Assembly (NCBI RefSeq): GCF_000531125.1
Contig: NZ_CBTK010000270.1
Location: forward strand, 1 to 47,746
Direction of reading: 5' to 3'
Source of the DNA: Candidatus Contendobacter odensis Run_B_J11
GTDB taxonomy: Bacteria; Pseudomonadota; Gammaproteobacteria; Competibacterales; Competibacteraceae
Length of the DNA: 47,746 nucleotides
Part shown: positions 17,888 to 24,299 of the stretch, one piece after another
Position numbering within the stretch: position 1 is the first letter of the stretch
How the letters are laid out: each line of letters opens with the position of its first letter
The notes under the pieces: generated by a model
What the model saw: the letters and a program-made list of their open reading frames with translations, nothing else
Told to the model about the DNA's origin: nothing
The model's database searches: none
Translations under genes and position numbers: made by a program

Positions 17888-19078
17888 TTAAATGAAACAG
17901 GCATTGGCTCGATCCAGACACTCGCACGCCTGATCGAGATCGGCATGACAGCGCATGACCCACGCATCGCCCCAGAAGAAATTGCAACTGGTTTCCGCCC
18001 GCAATACCCGCCAGTGTGCTTCCTCCAGCAAATTAAGTAGCTCCCGGTTTTGTGAGCCGATAGGGGTGGCATTGCCCAGCGCCGCCAGCACCGCCTGGCT
18101 GATCTCGTCCAACCGGATCAGGGCGTCTTTCTGCGCCGACGTACCCGACCATTGCACGAAATCACGACCATCGTGCCAGCCGGTATTCCATGCGCCCGGC
18201 CCGACCGTGACCTCGCCATGGGTGCCAAAGCGATTGAGATAGTCATGGATGAATGTCGGCTGGATCGCGGTTGCGTTGGCTCGCGCCTGATCCAACAGCG
18301 GTTTATAGAAGGCATCCCAGAAATTGCTGCCGGGTGCGGCGTTACGAAACCAGCCGCCATTTTCGCCATCGCTACAGGTTGTCACCAGCGCTGGGAAATC
18401 GCAGAACTGGGTACGCTCCCGGACTTCCCGGGTGAACCACTCCAGATCCATGCCTGACTCCTGGGCATTGGACAATTCACGGTCGCGCACAATCACAATG
18501 ATTTCCTCGCCGCCAAAGCGGGCGATATGCGGCCGGTAGCGCACTTCGTCCCAGCGCATCGGTGTCACCGGTTGCACATGCTCGCTATCTACCAGCACAA
18601 AGCGATAACCACGCCGCCGCAACAACGGGATCATCTCCATGCAAAACCCCATTTCCGGTGGCCAAAACCCCTGAAAATCGCTGTTAACGAACCAACGGTG
18701 GGCGATACCACGCCAGCGGTCGATGTGTGCATCCCAATCGGCTGGGGGAATCAGCGGGAACACCGGATGATAGTAACCTGTAGCTAAGTTATTAATAATT
18801 GAAGTATTTGTTAGGTTTCCCAGCAGTGCCGCACAGTCCACCATCCCACGGGCCCGGTCTTGAAAATCCGGGTCTGACAGAGTCTCCAACAGGGTTCCAG
18901 ACAGCGCCAGATGCACTCGCCCGACATCCTGATGCTCCCACAATGAGCGAGGAATACGGTCAATCGTAAACAGAATCTCCCTGGCCTCCGGCTTGTTATA
19001 GGCCAGCAGGTGATCCAGGTTGCCAGCCGGCTGGTGCAGGCTCAGCACGAGCGCATGATAAAGAGCGTTGTCCGCCAT
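17888..19078 (-). CDS. GH57 family glycoside hydrolase (short form)
   Basis: 396 residues. GH57 enzymes act on alpha-glucans as amylases, 4-alpha-glucanotransferases or branching enzymes through a retaining mechanism. The N-terminal region I is SLHQPAGN, without the first His of the usual HxHQP. The probable nucleophile is E142 in FWPPEMGF and the probable acid/base is D237 in SDGENGGWF. The length is well below that of typical branching enzymes, so a hydrolase or transferase is more likely, but activity cannot be assigned. AAAGGAGG precedes the ATG. It is the last gene of the glucan cluster, separated from the other GH57 gene by 138 bases that hold a tandem repeat. Confidence 0.85.
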   Translation of the reverse strand: MADNALYHALVLSLHQPAGNLDHLLAYNKPEAREILFTIDRIPRSLWEHQDVGRVHLALSGTLLETLSDPDFQDRARGMVDCAALLGNLTNTSIINNLATGYYHPVFPLIPPADWDAHIDRWRGIAHRWFVNSDFQGFWPPEMGFCMEMIPLLRRRGYRFVLVDSEHVQPVTPMRWDEVRYRPHIARFGGEEIIVIVRDRELSNAQESGMDLEWFTREVRERTQFCDFPALVTTCSDGENGGWFRNAAPGSNFWDAFYKPLLDQARANATAIQPTFIHDYLNRFGTHGEVTVGPGAWNTGWHDGRDFVQWSGTSAQKDALIRLDEISQAVLAALGNATPIGSQNRELLNLLEEAHWRVLRAETSCNFFWGDAWVMRCHADLDQACECLDRANACFI

Positions 19079-19148
19079 AATTCAGCCTCCTTTGTGGTCG
19101 GTAGTGGCAGCAGCGGGCGGAACCCTTGCCACCGCTTGCCACTACCAT

Positions 19149-19186
19149 GATTTTTTAATGACAAGCTAGATTTTTTAATGACAAGC
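19149..19186. repeat. Tandem 18-base direct repeat upstream of the short GH57 gene
   Basis: GATTTTTTAATGACAAGC occurs at 19149-19166 and again, identical, at 19169-19186, separated by TA (period 20, about two helical turns). On the minus strand each copy reads GCTTGTCATTAAAAAATC, containing TTGTCA, one mismatch from a -35 box. The repeat lies 71-108 bases before the GH57 start. It could be a regulator site or duplicated promoter element. Confidence 0.8.
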
Positions 19187-19216
19187 CAACGCGGACGCGG
19201 CCAGGTAATCCGAACC

Positions 19217-20680
19217 TTAAAAGTCGGTTTCGACAATGGCGCTGGCTCGTCGGCAGAGCTCACGCCCATAGTCGGTCCACAAGCCCTGTCCCCAATAGCG
19301 GTAGCAACTGGTCTGCGAACTCATCAGATTGAACAGGGCGTTGCGATAGCGTGGATCGTTGGACGACACCCCCGGCTTCAACACTTTTTCGTGGAATACC
19401 GAACTGGCTTTCTCCATCGGTCCGAGGACATTGTCGTAGCCGCGTACCCAGGAAATGTCATTGGTCCAACTGCCGCCTTCCATGTGGAAGCGCCCATCTT
19501 CCTTCTTCAGTTCGGCAATCACCTGCTCCAACTTTTCCGGCCCGGCGCCCGGGGTAAATCGCTCCCAGATCCGTTTCTGGAACGAGGGCTGGATCGTAGG
19601 CAAATCGGATTCCTTGATCCCCATCGCGAACAGGTGTTCCAGATATTCGGAACCATTCATGAACGACACATCCGAGCCGGACGACTCTCGCACCGAATCC
19701 ATGAACTTGCCGGGGAATTCATTCATCATTACCCCGCCGTTCTCCCCGTCAGCGATTTGGGTGACCAGCGGCGGCACCGATTTCCCGGCCAGTTCCCAGC
19801 GTGACAGACTCTTGGCTTCGTAATAGGGCTGCATCTGCGCCACCAGCTTGGTGTCGCTGCCCTGGGTCTTGATAATGGCGATGATGCTGACGGTTTCGCC
19901 CTTGGAGTTGGTGCAGACCAGCCGGTGCGGCAGGTGCTTTTTCTCCAGACCGTGGCCGTTTTCCGGTTGCTCTACGGTGTGTTCCTGCACCAGCAACCAC
20001 TGGTAGCCGCAGTCCACCAGGGTCTTGATATAGGCGTAGGCGGTGTCGGGATGATTCGGCAACGCCATTTCCGAGGGTGAAAACCCGCGTACCCGCGCCA
20101 GCGCTTCCAAACCGAAGATTGCAGCAAAATGGTGTTGCCAAGCCTTGACGTGCAGCCGGAAATCCTGCGCCGGGGTTGAGGGCGCCACCGCGTGACCCCA
20201 TGGACAGCCCAGCCATTCAATGCCGCGCCGATAGTCGGGATTGCAACTGGCGTTCTTCAGCGCATCGAACACGTCGTTCAAACCCATGGCGCGCATCCCG
20301 TGGAACAGGGTGCCGGAATACTCCAGCATCACCCGAGGTTCCTTGCCTTCATTGATCAGTTGTGGGACGAATTCGCCGATCCGTTTGTAGCACCAGTGAA
20401 AGGCGGGCGCATTGTAGTTATCGCCGATGTGCTGGTTATCCCACATGTACTTGAGATTGCTGATCACCGCCGCTGTGGACAGATCGCCACCACCGGCGGG
20501 AATCAGCGGCTGGTGCATGTGCAAGGCGATGGCGCAGGCGGCGCGAATATGATCGAAATCAATGCGGCTTTCCGGCAGGTACGCGGGCTTGGCGCGACCG
20601 GCGCGCAGGGTCTCTTCCACGAGCGGCTCCGAACCGCAGATATTCGGCAAACCGTCAACATACTCTGGAAGCTGGCTCAT
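19217..20680 (-). CDS. GH57 family glycoside hydrolase (long form)
   Basis: 487 residues from the ATG at 20680; a GTG three codons earlier (20689) is possible but sits almost on the GAGGAG ribosome-binding site. Region I is HMHQP (54-58). The probable nucleophile is E204 in FSPSEMAL and the probable acid/base is D311 in ADGENGGVM. The same DGENGG motif occurs in the neighbouring short GH57 gene, so the two are distant relatives, not recent copies. Likely substrates are alpha-1,4/1,6-glucans; whether it is an amylase, transferase or branching enzyme is not clear. It lies between glgA and the second GH57 gene in one orientation, consistent with shared glycogen metabolism. Confidence 0.87.
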   Translation of the reverse strand: MSQLPEYVDGLPNICGSEPLVEETLRAGRAKPAYLPESRIDFDHIRAACAIALHMHQPLIPAGGGDLSTAAVISNLKYMWDNQHIGDNYNAPAFHWCYKRIGEFVPQLINEGKEPRVMLEYSGTLFHGMRAMGLNDVFDALKNASCNPDYRRGIEWLGCPWGHAVAPSTPAQDFRLHVKAWQHHFAAIFGLEALARVRGFSPSEMALPNHPDTAYAYIKTLVDCGYQWLLVQEHTVEQPENGHGLEKKHLPHRLVCTNSKGETVSIIAIIKTQGSDTKLVAQMQPYYEAKSLSRWELAGKSVPPLVTQIADGENGGVMMNEFPGKFMDSVRESSGSDVSFMNGSEYLEHLFAMGIKESDLPTIQPSFQKRIWERFTPGAGPEKLEQVIAELKKEDGRFHMEGGSWTNDISWVRGYDNVLGPMEKASSVFHEKVLKPGVSSNDPRYRNALFNLMSSQTSCYRYWGQGLWTDYGRELCRRASAIVETDF

Positions 20681-20731
20681 GCGTGTCACTCTCCTCTACT
20701 GGCTGGGCTTGCTGGATGAGCAGAAATGGCC

Positions 20732-20753
20732 TTGGCCGCAAGATCGCGGCCAA
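20732..20753 (-). other. Perfect hairpin between glgA and GH57
   Basis: TTGGCCGC (20732-20739) pairs perfectly with GCGGCCAA (20746-20753) around a six-base loop. In the direction of transcription no T run follows, so it is not a standard terminator. It may be an mRNA-stabilising or processing stem lowering expression of the downstream GH57 genes relative to glgA, or a small dispersed repeat. Confidence 0.6.
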
Positions 20754-20815
20754 AACCGTTCCTGCGGGTACTGACGCTGACATCAGGGCGCTGGCTCGTG
20801 AGATCGCAGCCGCCC

Positions 20816-22288
20816 TTATTTACAGCGGATATGTTCGTAGATGTTCAAGTAATCCTGACCGGGCCGACACCACGAATAGTCGCAGCTCATCCCGTGGGTG
20901 ACCAACTGGCGGAAGTCATCGGGATAGGTGTACCACAGCGCAATGGCACGATGCATCGCCGACTCGACCCCTGCATTATCCGCCCCTTGAAAGACATAGC
21001 CATTGCGTTCTTCCCACGGCTTGTGGGAATAGTCTTTATCAAACACGGTGTCCTTGAGACCGCCCACTTCGCGCACAATCGGCACTGTGCCATATTTCAG
21101 GGCGATCATCTGGGTCAGCCCGCACGGCTCGAACAGGCTGGGCATGATGATCATGTCGGATCCGGCATAGATCAGGTGCGACAACTCTTCGTCAAAGCCC
21201 AATTCCAGATGGCAGTCCGGGCTGTCGTTGAGGTGGCGCTTGAGATTCCAGAAGTGCTGATTGATATGCGGATCCGGGCTGGAGCCGAGCAGCACAAACT
21301 GGGCATTGTTGCGCAAGGCGTAAAAGATAGCGTGGCTAATCAGGTTGACGCCTTTTTGACTATCCAGCCGACCGACGTAAGCAATGATCGGCTTGTAATC
21401 CTTTTTTAGCCACAGCCGGTCGCGCAGTGCCTCCTTGTTGACGTATTTGCTATCCAGCGTTTCGATGCCATAGCGTTCGGGAATATGCGGGTCGATCTCT
21501 GGGTTCCAGATATCGTAATCAATGCCATTGAGTACCCCGCCAAACTTGCCCTGATGCGTGTTCAGAACCGGACCCAAGCCGCTGCTCTGATCGGTGAAGC
21601 GAGCCTCGTGGGAGTGGGTCGGCGACACCGTGGTCACAAAGTTGGAGTAGACGACGCCGCCCTTCATCAGGTTGACAGCAGTGTGATTAAAGTTGTCACG
21701 CAGCCGGTCGTAATTGAAATAGTGGGCGATATTGGTCAGGCCGGTGGCCCACAGCGCGTATTCACCGGTCAACCCCTGATGTTTGAAGTTGTGGATGGTA
21801 TAGCAGGCCCGCGATCCCCCCATTCCGGCGTGGGCGTACTGCTCGAACAGCAGTACCGGCACCAGTCCGGTCTGCCAGTCGTGGCAATGAATGATATCGG
21901 GCCGACGATTGTCTTTCAGCATGAATTCCAGCGCCGCCTTGCTGAAAAAGGCGAAGCGGCTGACATCGTCCTGAAAGCCATAAAAATGACCCCGATTGAA
22001 GAAATTTTCCGGGGAATGCGGCTCAATGAAGAAGCACTTGCGACCCTGGACAAAACCGAACCAGACCGTGCAGTGGATGGCACTGTTATACCAAGGCACC
22101 CACAAATCTCTCATGCTGACTTGCAGGCCCCAGATCTGGTCATAGCGCATGCAGTCATACTTCGGCAGGATGATATGAACCTCATTGCCACGGATTTCCA
22201 GTTCCCGGCTCAGGCCAAAGATGACATCCGCCAACCCGCCGACTTTTGCCACGGGGGCACATTCGGGAGCAATCTGCACAATGTACAT
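20816..22288 (-). CDS. glgA: Glycogen synthase (ADP-glucose, GT5 family)
   Basis: 490 residues. GlgA transfers glucose from ADP-glucose to the end of an alpha-1,4-glucan. The N-terminal substrate loop is KVGGLADV, with valine where Escherichia coli has KTGGLADV; the Val form is common in starch synthase III/IV-like enzymes. GGVLNGIDYDIWNP and the C-terminal SLFEPCGLTQMIALKYG complete the GT5 pattern. AAGGA lies eight bases before the ATG. No glgC or glgB is present in the window, so ADP-glucose supply and branching must come from elsewhere or from the GH57 neighbours. It is transcribed with the GH13 gene 101 bases upstream. Confidence 0.93.
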   Translation of the reverse strand: MYIVQIAPECAPVAKVGGLADVIFGLSRELEIRGNEVHIILPKYDCMRYDQIWGLQVSMRDLWVPWYNSAIHCTVWFGFVQGRKCFFIEPHSPENFFNRGHFYGFQDDVSRFAFFSKAALEFMLKDNRRPDIIHCHDWQTGLVPVLLFEQYAHAGMGGSRACYTIHNFKHQGLTGEYALWATGLTNIAHYFNYDRLRDNFNHTAVNLMKGGVVYSNFVTTVSPTHSHEARFTDQSSGLGPVLNTHQGKFGGVLNGIDYDIWNPEIDPHIPERYGIETLDSKYVNKEALRDRLWLKKDYKPIIAYVGRLDSQKGVNLISHAIFYALRNNAQFVLLGSSPDPHINQHFWNLKRHLNDSPDCHLELGFDEELSHLIYAGSDMIIMPSLFEPCGLTQMIALKYGTVPIVREVGGLKDTVFDKDYSHKPWEERNGYVFQGADNAGVESAMHRAIALWYTYPDDFRQLVTHGMSCDYSWCRPGQDYLNIYEHIRCK

Positions 22289-22389
22289 AAGCTTTCATCC
22301 TTTTTTCGTATTCTGGGCGCGGGCCTTGCGACCCAAACCACTACCCTCACCACCGGTAAAACGGCTTGAACCGCAACTGAAACCCTCGT

Positions 22390-23670
22390 CTAGTGCGGCA
22401 GATGATCGCGGCTGGTGACCATCACGAAGGCCTGACCCGGACGTAAATCGTAGGAAAACGGCCGCGGAATGTATTCCATAGCGTATTCCGGCGACACATC
22501 CATCAGCGGTGCGCCAGCCTGAATGTAGGTTCCCAGGTTTTCGGCGTAAAAATACTGATGATTATGAGGGTCTTTGTTGAGAATGATCAGCGCTTCGTCG
22601 TGGGTCTTGGCCGAGGCTTTCCACATGACCAGGATATTCGGGTTCTGGTAGGGCAGCACCGTAGTGGGACACTCTTCCTGAAACACCGTGTACTGGCGCT
22701 TGATCGCGTTAACGGTGGTAATGAACTCGCACAGGTCGGCATTGGGCTGTTCCCAGTCACTGGGCCGGGTGTTAACCACATGCAGCCGATGGCGGAAGCC
22801 ATATTCGAAGCCCACCGGGATCATCACCCCGGCGGAAAACAGGGCGGAAAACAGGTAGTGCTGCTTCATCGCCGCCTCGTTGCCGTTGACCTCCTGGAAC
22901 AACCGCTCGGTATCGTGGCTTTCCGGGAAGCTGACCGACGGCGCGATTTCGCGCACCAACTGATATTGCTCCATTAGCCAGGCGCCGTTGAAGTCCCACC
23001 ACTTGGAACTGTTGAACACATAATCGAAGCCGGCTTGGGCGGTTTGTTTGGTCTGGTCGGCGGTGCAGCCCAAGGTTTCGGCCAGGAACGCGGTATCGGG
23101 GTATTTTTGCCGGATTTCGCGAATCAGCCGGCCCCAGATGTGGCCGGGAATCTGGTAAGCCGCATCGCAGCGAAAACCCTTAAAACCCAGTTCCAGCAGA
23201 TATTCGACGATCTGGTAGCAATATCGGTAAAGCCCTTCCTGATCGGAACTGTGCTGGTGGTTGAACAACGCCAGATCACCCCACACCACTTTATGACCGT
23301 CTTCCATGCAGAACGGATGGGCGGCGCTGCCGTTTTCCTGGACGAACCATGCTGGGTGTTGACGGGTCAGTTCGGAATCGAAGGCGCAGTGGTTGATCAC
23401 CAGATCAACCATCACTTTAAGCCCCAGCTTGTCGGCGGTGGCGAGCGCCGCCTTGATCTGCTGGTCAGGGGAGAGTTTGGAGTCCGGATCGACCAGCAGT
23501 GGATTGAGTTGAAAGTAATCAACAATCGAATAAAGGCTGCCGGAATAACCGGGCTTCTGGACGGGATTGATGAAGATCCAGTCGAAGCCCATATCAGCCG
23601 CCCGCTTAAAGTGCGGTTCCCACTTCCCGAAAGGGCCGGCCAGCAAAGGAAAAAGGTTATAGATGATCAT
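22390..23670 (-). CDS. GH13 alpha-amylase family enzyme
   Basis: 426 residues, a compact (beta/alpha)8 barrel without recognisable extra carbohydrate-binding domains. The four GH13 regions are visible: DLVINHC (89-95), GFRCDAA with nucleophile D169, FLAETLG with acid/base E198, and ESHDTER with D253. All catalytic residues are therefore present. No signal peptide is seen, so it acts in the cytoplasm, probably on glycogen or maltooligosaccharides together with GlgA and the GH57 enzymes. It is first in the minus-strand glucan cluster. It lacks the N-terminal domain of GlgE, so maltosyltransferase activity is not supported; exact specificity is unknown. Confidence 0.87.
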   Translation of the reverse strand: MIIYNLFPLLAGPFGKWEPHFKRAADMGFDWIFINPVQKPGYSGSLYSIVDYFQLNPLLVDPDSKLSPDQQIKAALATADKLGLKVMVDLVINHCAFDSELTRQHPAWFVQENGSAAHPFCMEDGHKVVWGDLALFNHQHSSDQEGLYRYCYQIVEYLLELGFKGFRCDAAYQIPGHIWGRLIREIRQKYPDTAFLAETLGCTADQTKQTAQAGFDYVFNSSKWWDFNGAWLMEQYQLVREIAPSVSFPESHDTERLFQEVNGNEAAMKQHYLFSALFSAGVMIPVGFEYGFRHRLHVVNTRPSDWEQPNADLCEFITTVNAIKRQYTVFQEECPTTVLPYQNPNILVMWKASAKTHDEALIILNKDPHNHQYFYAENLGTYIQAGAPLMDVSPEYAMEYIPRPFSYDLRPGQAFVMVTSRDHLPH

Positions 23671-23834: not shown

Positions 23835-24299
23835 TTACAACTGGGTGGGCAGGTAAGCGGGCAGGCCAAGGCGGTTGATCAATCCCAACTGGGTTTCCAG
23901 CCAGCCGATGTGTTCTTCTTCGCTGGCGAGAATGGCCGCTAGCAGGTCGCGAGTAACGTAGTCACCACAACTTTCGCAATAACCGACTGCTTCCCGGTAG
24001 AGCGGGTGTGCCAGCAGTTCGAGTTTAAGATCTCCGCGCAGGATTTCTTCGACGTTCTCGCCGATATACAGCTTGCCGAGATCTTGCAGATTGGGCAAAC
24101 CCTCCAGTGCCAGAACCCGCTGAACCAGCCGGTCAGCGTGTTTCATCTCATCAATGGATTCCTCGTACTCGTGCTGACCGAGTTTAGCGAACCCCCAGTT
24201 TTCCAGCAGGCGGGCATGAAGGAAATATTGACTGATCGAGGTCAGTTCGTTCTTGAGTGCCTTATTCAGGTACTCGATTATCTTGGTATCGCCTTTCAT
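23835..24299 (-). CDS. bfr: Bacterioferritin
   Basis: 154 residues, standard length. Bfr forms a 24-subunit haem-containing shell that oxidises and stores iron. All ferroxidase ligands match the family: E18, E51, H54, E94, E127 and H130; M52 is the haem ligand. AGGAG lies upstream of the ATG. It follows bfd by 21 bases on the same strand, an iron storage and release pair, probably one transcript. The 164-base gap to the GH13 gene suggests that the glucan cluster has its own promoter. Confidence 0.96.

Follow-up and report, generated by a model that had tools for sequence, protein, structure and literature searches.

The closest experimental precedent for the genes described here comes from the archaeon Sulfolobus acidocaldarius, in which amyA and glgA are co-transcribed and deletion of either gene stops glycogen accumulation, according to the accessible text of one study (PMC8158581); the amylase of that mutant study is called a GH57 enzyme in the accessible part of a review (PMC11046441). 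Our subject is a cluster of four genes in Candidatus Contendobacter odensis Run_B_J11, located within a window (the whole stretch of DNA analysed, 47,746 nucleotides, contig C270 of a 4.6 Mb genome that is 99.5% complete) and encoding a small GH13 protein, a GT5 glycogen synthase (GlgA) and two GH57 proteins, here called GH57a and GH57b. The likeness to Sulfolobus lies in the linkage of a GH57-labelled amylase gene to a glycogen synthase gene, but the host in that case is an archaeon whose GlgB gene was not known to the authors, as far as the accessible text goes, and AmyA can be likened to GH57a by family label only.

Three other systems bear comparison. The plant starch synthase SS4 elongates primers, malto-oligosaccharides whose origin is unknown (accessible text of PMC11809589), and the catalytic domain of Arabidopsis SS4 (AtSS4), as covered in the accessible part of the SS4/SS3 structural work (PDB 6gne; PMC6086201), groups with the window GlgA. 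Granule initiation is a role of the plant enzyme; the bacterial GlgA is likened to SS4 by sequence. The partners of SS4 in plants, PTST2 among them, do not belong to GH57. The glgBXCAP genes of Escherichia coli, in the accessible portion of their description (PMC4301808), share with our system the synthesis of glycogen from ADP-glucose and the presence of GlgC, GlgA and GlgB in the genome, but E. coli has the other type of GlgA, and the cluster in the window holds GH57 genes and a small GH13 gene instead of glgB, glgX, glgC and glgP. The 4-alpha-glucanotransferase of Thermococcus litoralis (PDB 1k1x) has the same fold and catalytic pair as GH57a and GH57b, from which it differs in its length (659 residues, against 490 and 396), in carrying Lys rather than Asn at position 23 of the GH57 sequence logo, and in a sequence identity of 16–20% over the structural alignments.

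The computational analysis presented here established the gene content of the cluster, the SS4-type grouping of its synthase, the GH57 fold and intact catalytic residues of the GH57 proteins, the co-occurrence and linkage of GlgA and GH57a, and the presence of glgB and glgC in the genome. It names a highly conserved GH57 enzyme without family assignment as the usual partner of an SS3/SS4-type glycogen synthase, in carriers relevant to sludge treatment, methane oxidation and sulfur cycling. The Competibacteraceae lineage, to which this bacterium belongs, is known for glycogen storage. That an SS4-type synthase is paired specifically with a GH57 subfamily lacking assignment is a more interesting point than the replacement of GlgB by a GH57 enzyme, which a preliminary description of the locus had put forward.

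The synthase and its GH57 neighbour

All four genes lie co-directionally on the reverse strand, in the order GH13, GlgA, GH57a, GH57b and separated by about 100–140 bases, as both open reading frame (ORF) calls and family matches indicate. The preliminary description had read this arrangement correctly, together with the KVGGLADV motif of GlgA and the DGENGG motif shared by the GH57 proteins, and its view of a compact, unusual alpha-glucan cluster is borne out. The same genes in the same order are found in 19 of 21 Competibacteraceae-like loci (L034–L053, L057), some of them truncated where the contig ends; in the remaining two, the contig starts within GH57a or beside it, and only GH57a and GH57b are seen. 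The arrangement is beyond chance, and the four genes form a conserved unit.

The GlgA gene (20,816..22,288, reverse strand; 490 amino acids) matches the NCBIfam glycogen synthase model with 853 bits. Its best relative of solved structure is Arabidopsis SS4 (467 bits), far ahead of E. coli GlgA (251) and barley SSI (216). A quick-method tree of 49 of the 62 rows, with near-copies left out, joins AtSS4 to 35 SS4-type bacterial rows across a branch with a support of 99 in the Shimodaira–Hasegawa-like approximate likelihood ratio test (SH-aLRT), on the opposite side of which stand 11 other bacterial GlgA rows, E. coli GlgA and SSI. We therefore classify the window GlgA, by these comparisons, as an SS3/SS4-type GT5 enzyme that groups with plant SS4 and not with E. 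coli GlgA. Both kinds coexist in many distant genomes, the SS4-type with 52–71% identity to the window GlgA and the other with 33–37%. In methanotroph-type loci (L179–L182, L185, L192, L193) the frames of SS4-type GlgA extend 205–354 codons upstream in a Lys/Ala/Pro/Glu-rich stretch that is probably disordered, the figures being frame extents and not mapped starts; a similar Lys/Ala/Pro-rich stretch lies ahead of GH57a in L083.

The window GlgA is the one full-length GT5 synthase found in the genome; a second match to the GT5 model (C188:111-359) is weak and partial, within a 258-residue frame. Since no second full-length GT5 enzyme was found, the window GlgA is expected to be the principal synthase acting on ADP-glucose, and the proposal of a separate or secondary storage or remodelling route has been given up. 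The reported lack of glgB, glgC and glgP holds for the window, where none of them is found among the matches listed, and fails for the genome: NCBIfam models identify three GlgB (L164:5785-8046, L165:2494-4872, L168:4317-7787), three GlgX, MalQ, TreS-maltokinase, TreY, TreZ and one phosphorylase (glgP) elsewhere, and two GlgC are present, one of them assigned by a subfamily model at slightly below the equivalog cut-off. The glgB, glgX, glgC and glgP genes sit on other contigs, so that the canonical glgBXCAP clustering with glgA is not seen here. A complete second glg operon, which the preliminary description had set against its own proposal, thus exists in part: glgB, glgC, glgP and glgX are there, but no second glgA. 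GlgE is also encoded (Pfam), and on contig C262 (L166:4105-9862) it neighbours the second GlgC and a GlgX. A GlgE-type (GlgE–TreS) route may run alongside.

GH57a (19,217..20,680, reverse strand) probably starts at ATG 20,680, because a Shine-Dalgarno-like gaggag is found there, which gives 487 amino acids; the ORF tool places the start at GTG 20,689 (490 amino acids), and the residue numbers below follow this longer frame. The window protein has no match in Pfam, NCBIfam, PHROGs or a PDB sequence search, and searching the PDB sequences with it alone or with a 51-row profile returned nothing credible, while 30 of the 51 members of its alignment reach PF03065 at an E-value of 0.01 or better. 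That alignment comprises the window protein and 50 of 70 ORFs (1 of the 15 with at least 80% identity and 49 of the 55 below), drawn from several phyla; the 50 are 60–90% identical to the window protein, or 60–78% once the single Competibacteraceae row is excluded, and 132 columns are invariant across all 51. A second GH57a copy (60–62%) is present in three Verrucomicrobiota loci and one Syntrophobacteraceae locus.

The AlphaFold model of GH57a (mean predicted local distance difference test score, pLDDT, 86.9) is best matched in VIA-align by the Aquifex amylopullulanase (Z 23.7, root-mean-square deviation (rmsd) 3.2, 326 residues aligned) and similarly by the T. litoralis 4-alpha-glucanotransferase (Z 22.7, rmsd 3.1, 332 aligned), with GH57 branching enzymes at Z 19.5–20.9. 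GH57a is accordingly predicted to adopt the GH57 fold, an incomplete triosephosphate isomerase (TIM) barrel. The nucleophile E207 and the acid/base D314 are found in 51 of 51 rows. Profile comparison with hhalign relates GH57a to GH57b at 99.3% probability, pairing E207 with E142 and D314 with D237, within a DGENGG motif at the acid/base site of both; the two are different proteins, as had been supposed, and homologous.

According to the accessible text of a sequence-logo study (PMC6037648), logo position 23, the third residue after the proton donor, is Leu in GH57 branching enzymes, Lys in 4-alpha-glucanotransferases and Thr, Ser or Ala in alpha-amylases, non-specified and maltogenic amylases, while position 12 is aromatic in most specificities and amylopullulanases carry two Trp at positions 35–36. 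Position 23 is Asn in 51 of 51 GH57a and 18 of 19 GH57b rows, which agrees with none of the three; at position 12, 48 of 51 GH57a rows carry Ser, and 18 of 19 GH57b rows carry Trp. The motif taken as conserved sequence region (CSR) 5, by a mapping that we infer, reads YW in GH57a and FW in GH57b. The two proteins fit no published position-23 fingerprint, and a glucanotransferase-like action may still be theirs. As to whether they are simple amylases, the other outcome that the preliminary description had set against itself, they lack the published amylase residue at this position.

Distribution of GH57a and SS4-type GlgA

Among 398 Pseudomonadota genomes, including that of the window, GH57a was found in 13 and SS4-type GlgA in 15, namely the same 13 together with G113 and G121. 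SS4-type GlgA is therefore present in 13 of 13 genomes with GH57a as against 2 of the 385 others (Fisher p = 1.3e-22, uncorrected for kinship). Membership of the SS4 type was set at 57% identity or more, with G254 judged from a 205-residue piece; 205 other genomes have only weaker GlgA matches among the matches listed, the weakest being typed by best E-value, none below 1e-84. Ten of the 13 genomes have GH57a and GlgA side by side in the same orientation; in the other three they are divergent neighbours (G110), about 8 kb apart on the same contig (G117) or on different contigs (G163).

Within the family, 24 of 37 genomes were checked for GlgA (G000–G023, setting aside G024–G036). SS4-type GlgA was confirmed by tblastn in 15, with a fragment in G001 and a further case, G019, recognised by score and place only; all 17 have GH57a, in some as fragments. 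Six of the 24 have neither (G002, which is 75% complete, G010, G014, G016, G020 and G023). In the remaining genome, G013, GH57a is absent and the SS4-type glgA is divided between two overlapping ORFs (L275:6425-8607; residues 1-289 and 263-490), the second of which begins with a Lys/Ala/Pro-rich stretch. G024 and G029 gave no GH57a match.

The association extends to distant genomes. Taking 50 of the 59 non-Competibacteraceae loci (L059, L061, L062, L067, L068, L086, L087, L107 and L111 being omitted as seeming near-copies or short), SS4-type GlgA is present in 44 of the 50 genomes with GH57a, GH57b in 24 (E < 1e-60), with one broken remnant besides, and GH13 in 20 (E < 1e-80), 14 of these at 58–63% identity. 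On these counts GlgA and GH57a form the core, and GH57b and GH13 are optional. SS4-type GlgA shares a stretch with GH57a in 19 of the 59 contigs, many of which are short, and the two genes stand together, with changed neighbours, in loci titled Chloroflexota, Verrucomicrobiota, Fibrobacterota and Thermodesulfobacteriota. A GlgB-type gene shares the locus with GH57a in five loci of other lineages (one member confirmed by Pfam). Among the 25 largest ORF clusters, no neighbour other than GH57a, GlgA, GH57b and the GlgB-type gene recurs in more than four loci.

All four genes are present in the cultured methanotrophs Methylococcus capsulatus (G081) and Methylotuvimicrobium buryatense (G106). In M. 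capsulatus and Methylotuvimicrobium the module is split, GlgA being followed directly by GH13 (L185, L193) and GH57b and GH57a lying elsewhere (L082, L110). Since these cultured genomes hold all four genes, a role of GH57a in starting or shaping alpha-glucan particles is directly testable; glgA1 and glgA2 mutants of a methanotroph have reportedly been described. A published pairing of a GH57 enzyme with an SS4-type bacterial GlgA was not found in the literature, a search that left subscription papers largely outside, so that unpublished status is unproven.

A proposed role in glycogen synthesis and its alternatives

The adjacency of the GlgA and GH57a genes in this bacterium and its relatives, and their frequent co-occurrence in other bacteria, suggest that the two proteins cooperate in building storage glucan. 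By analogy, GH57a would act on alpha-1,4-glucan during synthesis, serving priming or chain trimming. The reading that we favour, with rather more confidence than doubt, is that the cluster is a glycogen-synthesis module. GlgC, encoded elsewhere, would supply ADP-glucose, from which the SS4-type GlgA, as the only GT5 synthase found, would elongate alpha-1,4-glucans; GH57a, as a retaining enzyme on such glucans, would make, transfer or trim short linear chains and so provide suitable primers or chain ends for GlgA; GH57b and the small GH13 would be optional accessory enzymes, and branching would be left to ordinary GlgB encoded elsewhere. A bolder extension, which we put forward tentatively and consider unlikely as a whole, is that GH57a founds an unrecognised GH57 subfamily making or maturing malto-oligosaccharide primers for SS3/SS4-type synthases, the GlgA–GH57a pair being a glycogen-particle initiation system of bacteria in several phyla. 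If true, a primer-making GH57a would be a lead on the origin of the primers of plant SS4.

Several observations weigh against this proposal. GH57a is an uncharacterised enzyme whose function is predicted. The 13 Pseudomonadota genomes span four families, so the independent events are fewer than 13, and G113 and G121 have SS4-type GlgA without GH57a at an E-value of 1e-30. Six of the 50 distant genomes with GH57a show no SS4-type GlgA (G073, G083, G084, G086, G090, G093), and G083, G086 and G093 have E. coli-type GlgA only. In Verrucomicrobiota, SS4-type GlgA occurs in 12 of 288 genomes, and GH57a stands beside it in 3 of 11 stretches, counting within these stretches only; two more have GH57b and GH13 beside it, and several end at contig ends. 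Long branches in the GlgA tree, those of AtSS4, SSI and several bacterial rows, leave the fine placement unsure. GH57b, finally, may be decaying in Competibacteraceae, because 2 of 19 aligned rows (18 loci and the window, near-copies and cross-hits left out), both of Competibacteraceae type, have each lost one catalytic residue: the proton donor, now Pro, in L037:7389-8576 and the nucleophile, now Asp, in L049:9587-10771, the GH57a beside each being conserved as in the family. By eye, the ORF after the SS4-type GlgA of G113 resembles GlgB.

The main rival, in our judgement not the probable one, is that the genes accompanying glgA, those of GH57a, GH57b and GH13, encode breakdown enzymes that mobilise glycogen on demand. 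The resemblance of the small GH13 to the glucanotransferase domain of glycogen debranching enzyme (PF14701), the many hydrolases in GH57 and GH13, and the glycogen cycling ascribed to these bacteria are all in keeping with it. Breakdown, however, is already covered by GlgP, three GlgX and MalQ, GH57a tracks a single kind of synthase and not glgA in general, and the Sulfolobus precedent, in the accessible text, is a defect of synthesis.

That GH57a or GH57b is an extra branching enzyme, giving a particular branch pattern, we regard as distinctly improbable. The fold of GH57a does match that of GH57 branching enzymes, at the Z-scores given above, and bacteria possessing both GH13 and GH57 branching enzymes have reportedly been found (PMC6629080); against this stand Asn instead of Leu at position 23, the three GlgB of the genome and the five loci of other lineages in which GH57a is accompanied by a GlgB-type gene. 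The same three points, the first being the CSR-4 fingerprint, led us to reject a GH57 enzyme substituting for GlgB as the leading idea. 'True' GH57 branching enzymes are described, in the accessible text of PMC10346327, as having a flexible loop with a Tyr and two beta strands.

It is more doubtful still that GH57a is mainly a glucan-binding scaffold recruiting or priming GlgA, with catalysis secondary: conservation along its entire length, with 132 columns invariant, would suit such a role, and so would the Lys/Ala/Pro-rich stretches that precede GlgA in methanotroph genomes and GH57a in L083, but neither catalytic residue varies in any of the 51 rows. Shared ancestry alone, with no functional meaning to the clustering, draws on the confinement of the 13 Pseudomonadota cases to four families and is scarcely credible given GlgA–GH57a pairs with changed neighbours in loci titled as four other phyla and the finding that, within the family, genomes lacking one gene lack the other.

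Accessory genes and flanking features

The GH57b gene (17,888..19,078, reverse strand; 396 amino acids) matches PF03065, with E142 as nucleophile and D237 as acid/base, each present in 18 of 19 rows. Its AlphaFold model (pLDDT 84.0) is closest in VIA-align to the T. litoralis 4-alpha-glucanotransferase (Z 28.4, rmsd 3.9, 299 aligned). In an hmmsearch alignment, E142 falls on the Glu within the WLTERV motif of that enzyme. This Glu is the catalytic nucleophile, E123. Within the family, GH57b is 69–79% identical to the window copy, against 83–90% for GH57a, ranges that leave aside L052 with its broken-looking GH57b and a GH57a at 78%; by this measure GH57b is the less constrained of the two. A broken GH57b remnant with several stops lies beside a GlgA–GH57a pair at L109:9555-10113 (reverse strand). 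The genome holds a second GH57b-like gene near a mechanosensitive channel gene on contig C315 (L001:1030-2340, reverse strand; 56% identity to the window GH57b) and, on contig C77 (L171:3753-5990, reverse strand), a further GH57-type protein of 745 amino acids whose PF03065 match is only partial.

The small GH13 gene (22,390..23,670, reverse strand; 426 amino acids) heads the cluster and matches PF14701, within residues 10-107, and PF00128. D89, H94, R167, D169, E198, H252 and D253 are invariant in 8 of 8 aligned rows, and we take D169, E198 and D253, from known GH13 motifs, to be the Asp-Glu-Asp triad. Eukaryote-type glycogen debranching enzyme has a glucanotransferase domain followed by an amylo-1,6-glucosidase domain; the 426-residue protein does not show this architecture, having no second domain in its Pfam matches.

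A bacterioferritin gene (23,835..24,299, reverse strand) adjoins the cluster in many Competibacteraceae loci and is outside the cross-phylum module. L044, whose contig bears the title Phycisphaerales, has the complete Competibacteraceae cluster together with bfr, at 76–87% identity (bfd 48%), and is probably a misplaced contig. Promoter and terminator scans gave no more matches than in shuffled sequence. The gap between GH57a and GH57b contains, at 19,149-19,186, an A/T-rich 18-mer present as two identical copies in head-to-tail order; zero such pairs are expected by chance in the window, and among 276 loci an exact copy occurs only in two loci of the bacterium's own genome.

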